The translations under genes were made by a program, and so were the position numbers. From contig NZ_CP120131.1 in assembly GCF_034039665.1 (NCBI RefSeq), forward strand, positions 1,846,446 to 1,910,445: a stretch of DNA of 64,000 nucleotides, written 5' to 3'. Below, in pieces: positions 19,541-60,164 of the stretch. This DNA comes from Mammaliicoccus sp. Dog046. GTDB taxonomy: Bacteria > Bacillota > Bacilli > Staphylococcales > Staphylococcaceae. The notes beneath the pieces were generated by a model. It saw only the letters and a list, made by a program, of their open reading frames with translations. It ran no database searches and was not told the DNA's origin. Within the stretch, counting starts at the first letter, position 1. Every line of letters starts with the position of its first letter.

Positions 19541-19846
19541 ATATCGTGCGTTTCATACCTAATCGCACGATATCTCGGCACTACCCCTTAACTCTTCGTG
19601 CGATTCACACCCAATCGCACGATATCTCGATACTACCCCTTAACTCTTCGTGCGTTTCACACCTAATCGCACGATATCTCGATACTACCCCTTAACTCTT
19701 CGTGCGATTCATACCTAATCGCACGATATCTCGGTACTACCCCTTAACTCTTCGTGCGATTCATACCTAATCGCACGATATCTCGGTACTACCCCTTAAC
19801 TCTTCGTGCGATTCATACCCAATCGCACGATATCTCGGCACTACTT
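19541..19846. repeat. Tandem hairpin array, 52-bp period, six copies
   Basis: ATCGCACGA starts at 19562, 19614, 19666, 19718, 19770 and 19822, an exact 52-bp period. Each unit carries an inverted repeat of TCGTGCGATT and AATCGCACGA around a seven-base loop, then a 25-base spacer with ACTACCCCTTAACTC. Some units have one mismatch in the left arm. It lies between the 3' end of terC and the upstream side of htrA-like. A related array with another spacer is at 60019-60164. The rest of the 19341-19899 gap shows no gene. Confidence 0.95.
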
Positions 19847-26930: not shown

Positions 26931-26947
26931 CGTTTCAAATGATCGGC

Positions 26948-27127
26948 CTTATTTGCACGTTTGCCTACTCTTGCTAATATAGCAGCTCTTATTTGCACCT
27001 TTGCCTACTCTTGCTAATATGACGCCCCTTATTTGCATGTTCGACTACTCTTGCTAATATGGCACCTCTTATTTGCATGTTCGACTACTCTTGCTAATAT
27101 GGCACCTCTTATTTGCATTTCTAACTC
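26948..27127. repeat. Tandem array, 40-bp period, five copies
   Basis: CTTATTTGCA starts at 26948, 26988, 27028, 27068 and 27108, an exact 40-bp period; the last copy is partial. Each unit has ATTTGCA and TGCTAAT separated by 14 bases, an imperfect inverted repeat, then a short variable piece (GGCACCT or similar). It lies between the convergent ltaA and yjcG genes, past both terminators. The remainder of the gap 26892-27228 holds only terminators. Confidence 0.93.
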
Positions 27128-27161
27128 AATATGCTAATAACCCAAGCTCAAATCAAACAAA

Positions 27162-31677: not shown

Positions 31678-32451
31678 TTATCTTACTACGTGATAACCTG
31701 AGTCTACATGGATATTTTCACCAGTAACACCGCTTGAATAATCACTTAATAAATAAGCCGCTGTCTTACCTACTTCGATAATATCAACATTACGTTTCAA
31801 TGGTGAACGCTCTTCAATTTCTTTAAGAATTGAATTAAAACCGCCAACGCCTTTCGCACTTAATGTACGGATTGGTCCAGCAGATATTGCATTCACACGA
31901 ATATTATCTTCACCTAAGTCACGAGCTAAATATTTAACGTTTGCTTCAAGACTTGCTTTAGCAACACCCATCACGTTATAGTTTGGTACTGCAAATTCTC
32001 CGCCTAAGTATGTTGTCGCAACAATGCTTCCACCTTCAGGCATTAATTTTTTAGCTTCACGTGCAACTATCGTTAATGAGTAAGAACTAATATCTTGTGC
32101 TAATAAGAATCCTTCACGTGATGTATCTGTAAATCTTCCGCGTAAATCTTCCATGTTAGCAAAAGCAATTGAATGATAAACACCGTCAATTTGGCCGAAT
32201 TTCTCGCCAATTTGTTCAAATGCTTGAATGACTTGATCATCTTGTTGAACATCACATTCGTATATATGTTGTCCTTGTTGATTTTTTAATTCGTCGAATA
32301 ATTTTTCAAGTTGAATTTTACTACGTTCTTTTCTATAAGTGAATACTAAATTTGCACCTAATTCATCTAGTACTTTAGCTACGCCAAATCCTATACTTCT
32401 CTTATTCGCGATACCCATAATCACATATGTTTTACCTTCTAAATTGAACAT
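31678..32451 (-). CDS. fabI: Enoyl-[acyl-carrier-protein] reductase
   Basis: This 257-residue SDR-type reductase performs the last step of each fatty-acid elongation cycle and is the triclosan target. The cofactor motif GIANKRSIGFGVAKVL begins near residue 13. The active-site Tyr-x6-Lys is YNVMGVAK near residue 157, with a second Tyr ten residues earlier (SSYSLTIVA region). GGAG precedes the ATG. A promoter with -35 TTGTCA and -10 TATTAT is visible at 32499-32527. I find no clear FapR box here, unlike in front of fabH. It is monocistronic in this window. Confidence 0.96.
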   Translation of the reverse strand: MFNLEGKTYVIMGIANKRSIGFGVAKVLDELGANLVFTYRKERSKIQLEKLFDELKNQQGQHIYECDVQQDDQVIQAFEQIGEKFGQIDGVYHSIAFANMEDLRGRFTDTSREGFLLAQDISSYSLTIVAREAKKLMPEGGSIVATTYLGGEFAVPNYNVMGVAKASLEANVKYLARDLGEDNIRVNAISAGPIRTLSAKGVGGFNSILKEIEERSPLKRNVDIIEVGKTAAYLLSDYSSGVTGENIHVDSGYHVVR

Positions 32452-32575: not shown

Positions 32576-32598
32576 AAGTATGCTCATAAAAAAATGCC
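32576..32598. repeat. 23-bp direct repeat flanking hairpin array (left copy)
   Basis: Bases 32576-32598 are identical to 33234-33256 (AAGTATGCTCATA, seven As in total, then TGCC). The two copies bracket the 131-bp-period array. Confidence 0.9.
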
Positions 32599-32599
32599 A

Positions 32600-33199
32600 C
32601 GCTAACGTGATTGTTTTTACTTTCTATCTCGTTAGATTTTCTAACAGGATTGTTTTCAAGAACTATCTCGTTAGCACATTGTTTTCTCACTTTTTGTAGT
32701 AAATCCGGGCTTTTGTGTGCTCCATTTACTCGCTAACGAGATTGTTTTCATTTTCTATCTCGTTAGATTTTCTAACAGGATTGTTTCCCAGAACTATCTC
32801 GTTAGCGTCTTGTTTTCTCACTTTTTGTAGTAAATCCGGGCTTTTGTGTGCTCCATTTACTCGCTAACGTGATTGTTTTTACTTTCTATCTCGTTAGACT
32901 TTCTAACAAGATTGTTTCCCAGAACTATCTCGTTAGCGTCTTGTTTTCTCACTTTTTGTAGTAAATCTGGGCTTTTGTGTGCTCCATTTACCCGCTAACG
33001 AGATTGTTTTCATTTTCTATCTCGTTAGATTTTCTAACAGGATTGTTTCCCAGAACTATCTCGTTAGCGTCTTGTTTTCTCACTTTTTGTAGTAAATCCG
33101 GGCTTTTGTGTGCTCCATTTACTCGCTAACGTGATTGTTTTCATTTTCTATCTCGTTAGATTTTCTAAAGTGATTGTTTCCCAGAACTATCTCGTTAGC
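32600..33199. repeat. Tandem two-hairpin array, 131-bp period, five copies
   Basis: CGCTAACG starts at 32600, 32731, 32862, 32993 and 33124, an exact 131-bp period; the last copy lacks the spacer. Each unit has two 34-base hairpins separated by ATTTT. Both use arms of the type CTAACGAGAT / ATCTCGTTAG with a 14-base loop. The first loop is like TGTTTTCATTTTCT and the second like TGTTTCCCAGAACT. A 58-base spacer with AAATCCGGGCTTTTGTG follows. It lies between the upstream side of fabI and the 3' end of cpaA. Confidence 0.95.
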
Positions 33200-33233
33200 C
33201 ATAAACCCCAAGCATTTTTTAGCGTTATATTAA

Positions 33234-33256
33234 AAGTATGCTCATAAAAAAATGCC
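33234..33256. repeat. 23-bp direct repeat flanking hairpin array (right copy)
   Basis: This copy is identical to 32576-32598. It overlaps the T-run side of the cpaA terminator. Just to its left, ATTTTTTAGCG at 33214-33224 matches the boundary motif also seen at 47495, 51461 and 59999. Confidence 0.9.
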
Positions 33257-33286
33257 GACAAAGCTAAGACTTTGTCGACATACTTA
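33245..33286 (-). terminator. Terminator of cpaA
   Basis: The minus-strand stem TGTCGACAAAGTC with its GCTTTGTCGGCA partner is followed by seven Ts. A near-identical terminator stands at 51541-51577. Confidence 0.85.
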
Positions 33287-33295
33287 AAACATAAC

Positions 33296-35137
33296 TTAAA
33301 TAAATTCCATATCTTGTTTCAATTGTGAAACATATTCTTTTGAACCTGTAACGATTAATTTATCGCCATATTGTAGTTCTGTGTCACCATGCGGAACGAT
33401 TGAATCTTTCCCTCTAATAATACGAACGAAGATAACGTCTCCAGCAAATGGGAATGATCTTAATAACACATTATGATAACTGTGATTTTTCATTTCAATT
33501 TCATATAATGATGTTTCAACATTGCTTAATAAGTTCAGCATATTTGGTGATTCTATTAAACCTTTTAACAGTGTTTTATTACTTAAGAAACTACTAAAGA
33601 ATTCAATATTTTTACCTTCAAATGCTTCATCTTCAAAGCCATTTTCTTGTTTACAAATAATACGTTTAACACCATGGTCATGTGCCATTAATGCGACTTT
33701 CTTATTAATCAAGTCATCATTAGCAGAACATACAATAATATCAGAATTAAATAATCCGAGTTCTATCAATTCTTCTTCAATATAGTCATCTAATTCAAAC
33801 GTTCGAATACTTTGATCTAACTTTCTATTATCTGATAAATCTTTTCTAAAGAACATTGTCGTTTGATAAATATTTGAATGTATACTTTGTGCGACTGGTA
33901 TTGATAATTGGTTTTTCCCGATAAAGCTTACTTTCACGATTGTCTTCGTCTCTTCCGGCATTGGGAATAATTTCTTGAATACAACTGGAACAAATACACA
34001 TGTAATAACAGCACTTAAAATAAGTATGCCTGAAATTTCAGGTGAAATTGTGTCTAATTGTTCAGCTATTTTAGCAGCCGCAATAACGAGTGATAACGTT
34101 GACGTTAATAAAAATGCTGATGAAATCGTTGTATATTTATCGTACCATTTGCCAATATAAGCAACAGGTATAATTTTTGAAACTAGAAATGCGACAAACA
34201 ATAATGGAATGATGATAAGTAAACTTGGTTCTTTGATTAATGAAGGAATATCTAAATTCACACCTACCATTATGAAGAAGATAGGAATGAAAAATCCATA
34301 ACCAAATGAGTCTAATTTTTCTACCATATCTTGATCAGGGCCGAGTAAGGACACTATAACACCTGCTAAGAATGCACCAAGTATATTTTCAGCGCCTACA
34401 CCTTCAGCGAGCGCAACTAATAAAATAATTAATGCGAATACGGCACGTATACCAATTTGTGTAGTTCCAGACGTCAATTTCTTTAGGAATGATGATTTTT
34501 TAAATAAACCACCAACGATATAGAATACAAAACTAAATACAATTAATATACCTATTAACCACAATGGAGAATCTCCATGTGCATTGACTGTCCCGTAAAC
34601 TGTAAGCAATAACATTGTCGCTAAATCTGCAACAACGGCAACTAATAAGATAAATTGCCCAATATTCGTGTGCATAATGTTCATTTCTTTTAATGTAGGT
34701 ACGACGACACCTAGACTAATCGTAGAAATAATGATAATCATTAATAGAACATCATCAATTAATCCAGTCCATTTAAATACGAATGCTAAGAAGATGGAAA
34801 TAACCATGATCATACTAAATACAATCGTTGTTAAATATATATTGCTTGGTATTTCATTCTCATCTTCTTTATCTTCGTGTTTCTTCGTCTTAAATGCGTT
34901 GAAATCTATCTCTAAACCACTTAAAAACATCAAGAATATAAACCCTAATGTTGAAAGGATGGATAACCACGTATCTTCTTTTACTAATCCAAACAACGAA
35001 TCTCCTAATATAATCCCCATTAATATTTCAGCGACAACAACAGGTAAGAATGATATTTTAAGTCTATTTACTAGAACCGGTGTTAAAAATGCTGCTATAA
35101 CAACGATTACTAGTGATGTAAAACTTGAATGCTCCAT
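33296..35137 (-). CDS. cpaA: Cation:proton antiporter CpaA (CPA2 family)
   Basis: This 613-residue protein has about twelve membrane helices (residues 5-385) with the CPA2 pattern (FLSGLEIDFNAF near 70, GAFLAGVIVS near 255). A cytoplasmic RCK_N-like domain (about 400-500) and an RCK_C domain (about 525-610, VRIIRGKDSIVPHGDTELQYGDKLIVTG) follow. In S. aureus the CpaA RCK_C domain binds c-di-AMP, linking K+/Na+ export to osmotic signalling; the locus between fabI and mgtE is the same. No ribosome site is unusual. It follows mgtE by ten bases, so the two are probably one operon. Confidence 0.92.
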   Translation of the reverse strand: MEHSSFTSLVIVVIAAFLTPVLVNRLKISFLPVVVAEILMGIILGDSLFGLVKEDTWLSILSTLGFIFLMFLSGLEIDFNAFKTKKHEDKEDENEIPSNIYLTTIVFSMIMVISIFLAFVFKWTGLIDDVLLMIIIISTISLGVVVPTLKEMNIMHTNIGQFILLVAVVADLATMLLLTVYGTVNAHGDSPLWLIGILIVFSFVFYIVGGLFKKSSFLKKLTSGTTQIGIRAVFALIILLVALAEGVGAENILGAFLAGVIVSLLGPDQDMVEKLDSFGYGFFIPIFFIMVGVNLDIPSLIKEPSLLIIIPLLFVAFLVSKIIPVAYIGKWYDKYTTISSAFLLTSTLSLVIAAAKIAEQLDTISPEISGILILSAVITCVFVPVVFKKLFPMPEETKTIVKVSFIGKNQLSIPVAQSIHSNIYQTTMFFRKDLSDNRKLDQSIRTFELDDYIEEELIELGLFNSDIIVCSANDDLINKKVALMAHDHGVKRIICKQENGFEDEAFEGKNIEFFSSFLSNKTLLKGLIESPNMLNLLSNVETSLYEIEMKNHSYHNVLLRSFPFAGDVIFVRIIRGKDSIVPHGDTELQYGDKLIVTGSKEYVSQLKQDMEFI

Positions 35138-47066: not shown

Positions 47067-47074
47067 TAAATATT

Positions 47075-47113
47075 AAAACGACTTGGATGAAAAAATCCAA
47101 GTCGTTTTTTTGT
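47075..47113 (+). terminator. Terminator of trpS
   Basis: A 14-bp stem AAAACGACTTGGAT with its complement around a six-base loop, followed by seven Ts. Confidence 0.92.
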
Positions 47114-47156
47114 TGTCGACATCCCTATTTTATAATGAAAGATGTTCTAACGGGAT

Positions 47157-47480
47157 TGTTTCTCAGAACTATCTCGTTAGCGCTTTGAACACTAACTTTT
47201 TTCATGATTTTTCACCTAAAAGCAGGATTTTTCCCCGCTAACGGGATTGTTTTCACTTTCTATCTCGTTAGATTTTCTAACAGGATTGTTTCCTAAAACT
47301 ATCTCGTTAGCGCGTTGAACACTAACTTTTTTCATGATTTTTCACCTAAAAACAGGATTTTTCCCCGCTAACGGGATTGTTTTTACTTTCTATCTCGTTA
47401 GAATTTTTAACGGGATTGTTTTCACTTTCTATCTCGTTAGATTTTCTAACAGGATTGTTTCCTAAAACTATCTCGTTAGC
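47157..47480. repeat. Tandem two-hairpin array, 130-bp period
   Basis: The same two 34-base hairpin types as at 32.6 kb alternate here (arms CTAACGGGAT / ATCTCGTTAG). CGCTAACGG starts at 47236 and 47366, a 130-bp period. The spacer of about 57 bases (with CACTAACTTTTTTCATG) is different from that at 32.6 kb but repeated within this locus. Near the right end one hairpin of the first type is doubled. It lies between the convergent trpS and oppA genes. Confidence 0.93.
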
Positions 47481-47494
47481 GCGTTATACATAGT

Positions 47495-47574
47495 ATTTTT
47501 TAGCGCTGACTCCTGCGGGAACAGCATGATTCGAAGACTACAGGCTGAGAACATGCCCGCGGAAAGCATGCGCA
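47495..47574. mobile_element. 80-bp MITE-like element, copy 1
   Basis: These 80 bases are identical to 51461-51540. The ends, ATTTTTTAGCGC and GCGCAAAAAAT, form an imperfect terminal inverted repeat. The inside is GC-richer than its surroundings and has complementary GCGGG/CCCGC and GCATG/CATGC segments. It has no coding capacity. It stands at the right edge of the hairpin array. Similar tgcgggaa...cccgcggaaagc palindromes occur, as I recall, in other Bacillales; I cannot check this here. Confidence 0.75.
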
Positions 47575-47595
47575 AAAAATACTAATAAATATTAA

Positions 47596-47762
47596 AACGA
47601 GGCTGGGACATAATATATGTCTCAGCCTCGTTTGAGTTTCTTGGCAGTAGATGACTGAGTTAAAAATGCGCTTGTATCAAGCTTTTTTCAACTCTAGTCA
47701 TCCTTGCCGGGGCGAGATACGAAATCTTTTTTTGTAAATTAGATTTCTGTCCCGCTCCCGTT
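47596..47762. repeat. Composite hairpin region (terminator-like staphylococcal repeat)
   Basis: Three nested stems follow each other. The first is a stem on GAGGCTGGGACATA (47596-47632). The second is a dyad GATGACT / AGTCATC enclosing GCTTG-TAT-CAAGC (47646-47702). The third is GGGGCGAGATACGAAATCT with AGATTTCTGTCCCGCTCCC (47709-47760). The last recurs at 51580-51633. It is placed after the oppA stop on the minus strand and can act as its terminator. No gene is seen in the rest of 47067-47778. Confidence 0.7.
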
Positions 47763-51076: not shown

Positions 51077-51252
51077 ACACATTTCCCCTTATTCGATTTT
51101 TGAAAATTCAGTCATTTTCTGAACTTTCTTTAATTATAAAGATAATTTCAATTTGACGCAACATAACTTTAAATTATATGAATAGAATATATTTTTTGTT
51201 TATTACATTAACTTTTGTAATTAATCAAGATTTTTAGTAGGCTATGTTCGCT

Positions 51253-51417
51253 CTAACGAGATTGTTTCCTAAAACTATCTCGTTAGTGAGTTATTTTCTC
51301 ATTTTTTGTAATTAATCAGGATTTTTCGTGGGCTTTGTTCGCTCTAACGAGATTGTTTTTACTTTCTATCTCGTTAGATTTTCTAACAGGATTGTTTCCC
51401 ATAACTATCTCGTTAGC
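51253..51417. repeat. Short hairpin array, CTAACG family
   Basis: Three 34-base hairpins with arms CTAACGAGAT / ATCTCGTTAG are present: one of the second loop type, a spacer of about 57 bases, then first and second types joined by ATTTT. The spacer (with AATCAGGATTTTTCGTGGGC) is specific to this locus. It is upstream of the third oppA gene. Confidence 0.92.
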
Positions 51418-51460
51418 CATGCTCAATGTTGCTTGTCAGCCTTCACTTGCAATGTTCAGC

Positions 51461-51540
51461 ATTTTTTAGCGCTGACTCCTGCGGGAACAGCATGATTCGA
51501 AGACTACAGGCTGAGAACATGCCCGCGGAAAGCATGCGCA
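51461..51540. mobile_element. 80-bp MITE-like element, copy 2
   Basis: This copy is identical over 80 bases to 47495-47574 and again lies on the right side of a CTAACG hairpin array. It is followed by TAAAAAATGCCGACAAAG, the same type of sequence that borders the array at 33.2 kb. No open reading frame inside is believed coding. Confidence 0.75.
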
Positions 51541-51577
51541 TAAAAAATGCCGACAAAGTGATAACTTTGTCGACACT
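51541..51577 (-). terminator. Terminator after the second oppA gene
   Basis: The minus-strand stem TGTCGACAAAGT with ACTTTGTCGGCA is followed by six Ts. It is nearly the same as the cpaA terminator at 33245-33286. Confidence 0.85.
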
Positions 51578-51579
51578 CT

Positions 51580-51633
51580 GGGAGGATGGGATTACGAAAT
51601 CTTTTTTATAAATTAGATTTCTGTCCCACTCCC
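51580..51633. repeat. Hairpin repeat related to 47709-47760
   Basis: GGGAGGATGGGATTACGAAATCT pairs imperfectly with AGATTTCTGTCCCACTCCC. The same motif pair is found at 47709-47760, in both cases just downstream of an oppA gene on the minus strand. GGGAGTGGGACAGAAAT-type repeats are familiar in staphylococcal intergenic DNA. Confidence 0.7.
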
Positions 51634-60018: not shown

Positions 60019-60164
60019 AATCGCACGATGCCTCCAAGGTTTTCCCGAGATATCGTGCGTTTCAGTACCAATCGCACGAAGTCTTCAGGATTTTGCCGAG
60101 ATATCGTGCGTTTCAGTACCAATCGCACGAAGTCTTCAGGTTTTTGCCGAGACATCGTGCGATT
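60019..60164. repeat. Tandem hairpin array, 51-bp period, three copies
   Basis: ATCGCACGA starts at 60020, 60071 and 60122, an exact 51-bp period. The hairpin TCGTGCG-TTTCAGTACCAAT-CGCACGA matches the family at 19.5 kb, but the spacer (AGTCTTCAGGATTTTGCCGAGA) is of a different sequence. It lies between the convergent DUF3899 and fabF genes. ATTTTTTAGCG at 59999-60009 marks its left side. Confidence 0.93.

Follow-up and report, generated by a model that had tools for sequence, protein, structure and literature searches.

A tandem hairpin array between fabI and cpaA in Mammaliicoccus is probably part of a miniature IS1182-derived element

What kind of DNA is the pair of hairpins that is repeated every 131 bp between fabI and cpaA in Mammaliicoccus sp. 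Dog046? Our window (the whole stretch of DNA that was analysed, 64,000 nucleotides) contains five copies of this two-hairpin repeat, as originally predicted from the sequence. Tandem Repeats Finder (TRF) confirmed the array (period 131, 4.6 copies, 94% matches, score 1079), as did the spacing of its direct repeats (131, 131, and 131) and direct reading, and the period is exact. Each block (H1-H2) is 73 bases long and holds two 34-base hairpins joined by the linker ATTTT (ACTTT once). Four spacers of 58 bases part the five blocks, and there is a hairpin at both ends of the array. H1 and H2 together also form a quasi-palindrome of about 75 bp: the inverted repeats pair, and the minimum-energy fold nests both. 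When folded as RNA, the 600 bases gave z scores of -11.6 and -11.4 for the two strands, and none of 100 dinucleotide shuffles folded as well. The left neighbour is a FabI-type reductase (PF13561), and the right neighbour is a CpaA-like Na/H exchanger with a TrkA_C domain. A scan of the window against Rfam gave nothing at the gathering score. (A CRISPR array does not fit, as it requires unique spacers, and the spacers here are nearly identical.)

Our best explanation is that the array probably arose by tandem amplification of DNA inside a miniature element, derived from IS1182 and lacking a transposase, that inserts at terminators and duplicates them. The element would comprise a hairpin array (A), an optional second array (B), and a right-hand module that ends in CTTTGTCGACAYTCTGA. 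Its target would be the stem-loop of an intrinsic terminator, which would place the elements in intergenic gaps, mostly beyond the 3' ends of genes. Joining at both ends of the stem-loop would leave the element flanked by two complete terminators. The hairpin units would then expand, contract, and homogenise in each species independently, through slippage or recombination, and the copy between fabI and cpaA would be an old element that has lost its core. We infer the mobilisation in trans, the role of slippage as the amplifier, and the former completeness of the window copy.

The array belongs to a family that is spread over the genome (2,567,439 bases in one contig). The exact hairpin pattern GATTGTTTN{4,16}CTATCTCGTTAG occurs 204 times (106 forward and 98 reverse). 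With looser matches included, there are 49 arrays with about 265 hairpins, and our hairpin statistics are based on these 265. (The 49 arrays are those in the stretches around exact hairpins and BLAST matches, and arrays with neither would be missed.) In a gene call based on codon usage, no gene overlaps any of the 49 arrays. A length-based call placed frames over 12 of them; we take these frames to be spurious, given that the codon-usage call lacks them. In the latter call, the neighbouring genes are convergent for 25 of the arrays, codirectional for 22, and divergent for 2. The other gaps of at least 60 bases in the examined stretches served as the comparison (35 convergent, 100 codirectional, and 69 divergent; n=204). 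Relative to these gaps, the arrays are enriched between convergent genes (Fisher p 2.9e-6) and depleted between divergent genes (5.5e-6). Among the matches listed (100 of the 106 forward), no array lies between 1.036 and 1.488 Mb, a 450-kb region around the presumed terminus of replication. (In the relative G004, arrays are present at 1.20 and 1.39 Mb.) The window itself contains two more members of the family (Table 1).

Table 1. Features of the three hairpin-array loci in the window and the genes beside the first
Feature	Position	Strand	Remark
131-bp tandem array, five two-hairpin blocks and four 58-base spacers	32600..33199	+	
Block 1 (H1+H2)	32602..32674	+	
Blocks 2-5	32733-32805, 32864-32936, 32995-33067, 33126-33198		
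58-base spacer 1	32675..32732	+	
Spacers 2-4	32806-32863, 32937-32994, 33068-33125		
23-bp direct repeat AAGTATGCTCATAAAAAAATGCC, left copy	32576..32598	+	resembles element end AAAGCATGCGCATAAAAAAATGCC
Remnant of right-hand (IS1182-end) module	33212..33286	+	GCATTTTTTAGCG, 23-bp repeat (33234-33256), terminator hairpin; without central core
Terminus-like 17-mer	33270..33286	-	14/17 to TCAGAGTGTCGACAAAG
fabI (enoyl-ACP reductase)	31678..32451	-	
cpaA-like Na/H exchanger with TrkA_C	33296..35137	-	
Second family array, six hairpins	47146..47479	+	
Right-hand module of second array	47493..47579	+	intact core GAAGACTACAGGCTGAGA (47533-47550); no recognisable terminus
15-bp direct repeat TAAATATTAAAACGA flanking second element	47067-47081, 47586-47600		
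Third family array, three hairpins	51252..51416	+	
Companion 41-bp family B, one unit	51424..51456	+	
Right-hand module of third array	51459..51581	+	core 51499-51516; terminus 51565-51581 (16/17)

We then examined related genomes. An exact pattern nearly identical to that of our hairpins has no match in the 107 other genomes of the family. A looser two-hairpin pattern was matched (forward/reverse) 83/82 times in G000, 67/69 in G005, 17/16 in G004, 12/9 in G002, and 8/7 in G003. (This pattern is nearly self-complementary, so both strands report many of the same places.) The control was the reversed pattern, which gave 0-2 matches per strand in Mammaliicoccus. G001 (2/3), G006 (2/0), and G007 (1/0) were near this level, and other genera were at it. 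The stems of the hairpins differ from species to species. Proteins similar to CpaA were found in M. lentus, M. stepanovicii, M. fleurettii, and M. sciuri, and in all four of these relatives the gap between fabI and cpaA is free of arrays and is 153-164 bases long, versus 844 bases here. A plasmid or a phage does not seem to be the carrier, as the window array has no match in collections of plasmids and phages. (Among viral contigs, there were four single matches, L144-L147.)

Many of the arrays are part of a larger composite. In the orientation of the window, the 131-bp array A comes first, then optionally the 41-bp family B (172 units with at most 3 mismatches), and then the right-hand module. 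The module follows many of the arrays; it contains GAAGACTACAGGCTGAGA and a terminator hairpin and ends in CTTTGTCGACAYTCTGA. The exact 18-mer core is present in just 12 copies in this genome, so the module of most arrays must be partial or decayed. The same core was found in 18 of the 108 genomes of the family. The 17-bp terminus TCAGAGTGTCGACAAAG is present, with at least 13 of 17 positions matching, in 19 of the 49 right flanks; shuffled flanks gave 0 of 49 and never reached 12. In G005, the left end is (C)AGACTGTCGACAAAG and the right one is TTTATCTACAAACTGA, and by eye these look alike as inverted repeats. In most copies from our genome, the left terminus was not recognised. Between the left repeat and the array, most of these copies have unassigned sequence, of 3-92 bases. 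In some G005 elements, the slot of the array is filled by tandem repeats of other families (TTCTAACGACCATTATTCGGAATTCTGACCGTTAG and GTAAGGAGCAGAATTCCGAATAATGCTCGTTAGAAC, in L187, L188, L191, and L193), and it seems to accept different arrays.

The link to IS1182 comes from the genes beside the module. First, at a locus in G004 (L201), the module starts with TCAGAGTGTCGACAAAG right after a terminator hairpin and leads to a reading frame of 459 amino acids. The encoded protein is an IS1182-family transposase (NF033551, 450.6 bits versus a cut-off of 270) with the Pfam domains DUF772 and DDE_Tnp_1_6. Second, another G004 locus (L200) has the same module along with the first 97 residues of the L201 transposase. 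Third, a Staphylococcus locus (L163) has a related core followed by a different transposase of the IS1182 family (420 bits). Because the module and its terminus adjoin IS1182 transposase genes, the module is an IS1182-type end. By this arrangement, the arrays sit where the transposase gene would be. A tblastn search with the two IS1182 transposases against 552 kb (21.5%) of our own genome, which included the array loci, found no transposase.

If the elements insert at terminators and duplicate them, then copies of the terminator should be seen around the arrays. In G005, the locus's own terminator is copied on both sides of the element at 14 of 27 arrays when wider flanks are considered (for instance, AAAACACGATTAAGCCCATAGCTTAATCGTGTTTT); this count leaves out two repeats at L120 that are array sequence. 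Twelve of the 14 repeats fold as a hairpin, and the other two are one arm of a hairpin. With narrower flanks, 16 of 38 arrays from the sister genomes have exact flanking repeats of at least 19 bp, versus 2 of 300 mismatched pairs. After three cases of array sequence are dropped (two at L120 and one at L140), 13 remain, all from G005. We saw no terminator copies around the arrays from G001-G004. In our own genome, 11 of the 49 arrays are flanked by exact direct repeats of at least 15 bp, versus 1 of 182 mismatched pairs. Without two cases in which the repeat is from the element's end (1713591 and the window locus), there are 9 of 49 (p 3.9e-6). By this sequence comparison, the insertion signature is weaker in our genome than in G005. 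Local alignment of the own flanks gave a best score of 70, and the controls had a 95th percentile of 35, a 99th percentile of 103, and a maximum of 142. The flanks are lost in the tail of the controls because unrelated loci share modules of the element, and the signal in our genome therefore rests on the exact-match count. (Around the tsr24-type copies in Staphylococcus, discussed below, duplication is not supported: a repeat of at least 15 bp was found at 1 of 24 core loci, L175, and controls had repeats of at least 16 bp in 5 of 300.)

At the window locus, the module has lost its core but retains its two sides and a terminus that matches at 14/17. As a measure of chance, the best match reached at least 14/17 in 5 of 200 random 1.1-kb stretches of the window. 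We considered the 23-bp repeat at this locus as a target duplication and withdrew this, because the repeat resembles the element end AAAGCATGCGCATAAAAAAATGCC and is thus element-end sequence.

Similar behaviour has been described for IS1272, which is a member of the IS1182 family and targets terminators and stem-loops (PMC4923244, PMC5678879). According to Wan et al., IS1272 replaces stem-loops without duplication, and duplication of the whole stem-loop is drawn as an alternative, "pathway b" (PMC5678879). Furi et al. likewise give terminators as the targets, with no duplication (PMC4923244). The elements described here resemble IS1272/IS1182 in the transposase family beside the shared module and in their insertion at stem-loops or terminators (PMC5678879, PMC4923244). 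The 16-bp terminal inverted repeats of variable sequence that these sources give for IS1272/IS1182 (PMC5678879, PMC4923244) may be a further likeness, and IS1272L has tandem copies of its own left end (PMC5678879). Unlike IS1272, the elements here have tandem arrays of hairpins and no transposase. Also, the terminators in G005 are duplicated, not replaced, as in the "pathway b" that the published model draws as a possibility (PMC5678879). Thus, genome data show the duplication of whole terminators that the model drew merely as an alternative. More broadly, our explanation suggests where a class of intergenic tandem repeats in relatives of the staphylococci may come from. Among the top-ranked open-licence literature in PubMed Central, we found no description of the hairpin-array family.

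The STAR elements of S. aureus and S. lugdunensis are also short intergenic repeats, with species-specific places and locus-specific spacers (PMC3532100). They vary in copy number, and no function is known for them (PMC3532100). The STAR tandem unit is about 50 nt, as compared to 131 and 41 here (PMC3532100). The STAR motif TNTGTTGNGGCCC is absent from the window and from the examined loci of our genome; among 201 loci, it was found only at L155 and L156, neither of which is from our genome. At these two loci, which are from Staphylococcus genomes, motifs of the S. aureus type lie beside or inside the core of the IS1182 end (L155, about 1618-1730; L156, 516-528 and 708-720), and in L155 the loop of the core holds a STAR unit. 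Relaxing the motif brings in L153 and L154, for 4 of 25 loci. STAR elements may share an origin from IS1182 ends.

The module is also related to an annotated RNA family. In G005, an element (L114:4890-5102) matches the whole model of Rfam's tsr24 (RF02577) at 59.7 bits (gathering cut-off 50). Scoring no more than 17 candidates in each genome, we found tsr24 in 66 of the 108 genomes of the family at E 0.001, and in 41 above the cut-off. It is multicopy in many staphylococcal genomes (RF02577 matches L152-L176, for example), and in the copies that were read it lies within the end of an IS1182-type element (tested for L163, and by eye for L152, L160, L162, and L165). Rfam catalogues tsr24 as an sRNA, whereas in our data it is a marker of IS1182-type ends. 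This ties an Rfam "sRNA" family to the ends of insertion sequences.

The orientation of the arrays is another feature of the family. In the examined stretches, GC skew is positive before the middle of the contig and negative after it, and by this measure 45 of the 49 arrays follow the direction of replication (p 8e-10). This holds in each setting. Between convergent genes, 23 of 25 arrays follow replication, and between genes on the leading strand, 16 of 18 do. The lagging-strand gaps (4 of 4) and the divergent gaps (2 of 2) show no exception. (For the 12 proteins flanking these lagging-strand and divergent arrays, nine have a Pfam match above the cut-off, one has a weak match, and two have none.) Even arrays of one or two hairpins usually follow replication (8 of 9). 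By hand count, so do 21 of 22 B arrays in the examined stretches and all 12 exact cores in our genome. Also by hand count, five 51/52-bp arrays of the TCGTGCGATT type and two small families show no such bias, although these numbers are small. We can rule out that transcription sets the orientation, as the arrays still follow replication where the flanking genes are on the lagging strand. The orientation ignores gene direction, so the transcribed strand differs between loci.

Other genomes give a mixed picture. In G004, 7 of 7 arrays and 1 of 4 cores follow replication (one of the four is at near-zero skew), and in G007, 4 of 5 cores do. In G005, the counts are 18 of 28 arrays and 19 of 38 cores; two of the arrays are at near-zero local skew, and assigning them according to their neighbours raises the array count to 20. 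The remaining counts are 1 of 1 array in G001, 1 of 1 in G003, and 1 of 2 in G002. (On contig C3 of G005, from 0 to 290 kb, the cores that were read are plus-strand, which runs counter to the GC skew there; the neighbouring stretch is different.) The replication orientation is striking in our own genome and mixed elsewhere, and it is not yet a rule. The signal is strong in one genome and is directly testable.

Our best explanation leaves this orientation, which is weak or absent in G005, unexplained. The stability of the A hairpins favours the forward strand for 215 of 265 hairpins as RNA and for 180 of 265 as DNA (21 favour the opposite strand), as would be expected if stability set the orientation. 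We rejected strand-specific stability as the cause, as two family B units have about equal DNA energy on both strands. We can offer a tentative extension, which we consider possible but doubtful. If the machinery of the IS1182 type seeks stem-loops, then the replication fork could fix the orientation of the element because terminator hairpins would be exposed on one strand of the fork. The whole hairpin would be duplicated, and the tandem arrays would be a by-product or further landing sites.

The leading alternative, which we consider unlikely, is that the array binds a protein. The constant right arm of the hairpin would be the site for a chromosomal or regulatory protein, and its repetition would give cooperativity. 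This is close to the original prediction, which saw a constant right arm and variable left arms and suggested that the right arm is constrained, for example as a protein binding site. The right arm is indeed constant in the window, where 10 of 10 hairpins read ATCTCGTTAG. The variation in the left arms is real too: the prediction listed three variants and there are five, namely CTAACGTGAT (three times), CTAACGAGAT (twice), CTAACAGGAT (three times), CTAACAAGAT (once), and CTAAAGTGAT (once). Equal variation of the two arms over the genomic copies would have spoken against the idea, and the asymmetry survived this check. Across 257 copies, which were anchored solely on GATTGTTT, the entropy at left positions 5-7 is 0.90, 0.93, and 1.31 bits, versus 0.40, 0.12, and 0.27 bits at right positions 28-30. 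Of the two hairpins, the second contributes most of the asymmetry, through its left arm (62 distinct pairs). This much lower variability of the right arm is what a binding array would predict. In G003 and G004, however, the asymmetry is reversed (in 37 copies, it is the right arm that varies, and the left does not), and the main G005 family (101 copies) shows variation in both arms. Because of this reversal, the pattern of variation argues against a conserved right-arm site as the meaning of the asymmetry, and we do not favour it. Also, the stems depend on the species, and the locus is empty in relatives.

A further point for the binding array is that the period is kept at 130/131 despite the varying sequence of the spacers. 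The spacers stay at 56-59 bases, with spacings of 90-93, and their sequence changes from locus to locus. Simple ageing of the arrays does not explain this constant length with changing sequence, which counts against our best explanation. (We dropped helical phasing of the periods of 109, 120, and 131, which were read by eye, since there are too few independent values.)

It is still less likely that the hairpins work at the RNA level, as terminators, stabilisers, or sponges within transcripts. The strong folding on both strands, the placement of the arrays mostly beyond gene ends, and the match of the neighbouring G005 module to a staphylococcal sRNA family (tsr24) are consistent with such a device. 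But all four lagging-strand arrays and both divergent arrays keep the orientation of replication and not that of the genes. We also considered whether compensatory pairing proves a conserved fold, and there is none in our own genome (z -1.1 to 0.3). In G005, pairing covaries with z of 3.2-5.0, in both registers. We put this signal down to subfamilies, as the main G005 family shows no covariation (pairing at the variable positions is 1.92, versus 1.98 when shuffled), and the two folds are not told apart.

Least probable is that these are REP-like elements that a Y1 (RAYT/IS200) transposase moves on the lagging-strand template: they are palindromic, intergenic, species-specific, and strongly replication-oriented in our own genome, but Y1_Tnp had no match in this genome or in 6 of 7 relatives, which weakens the idea, and we would not expect long terminator duplications from single-strand insertion. 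The resemblance to REP/BIME/REPIN sequences lies in the palindromic pairs, the convergent and codirectional gaps, and the tandem clusters (PMC3733652). The differences are the IS1182-type ends and the lack of a RAYT gene. We also rejected a reverse transcriptase as the mover, as PF00078 was sought and not found.

The window contains other tandem repeats besides those of this family. Arrays of 51/52 bp with hairpins of the type TCGTGCGATT...AATCGCACGA are at 19544-19844 and 60019-60161, and there are five in the examined stretches. A 40-bp array of a separate family (CTTATTTGCATGTTCGACTACTCTTGCTAATATGGCACCT) is at 26947-27139, and it likely has a second member at genome position 968500. Finally, a 277-bp tandem repeat (2.7 copies) at 1420-2176 overlaps two reading frames of 82 amino acids.
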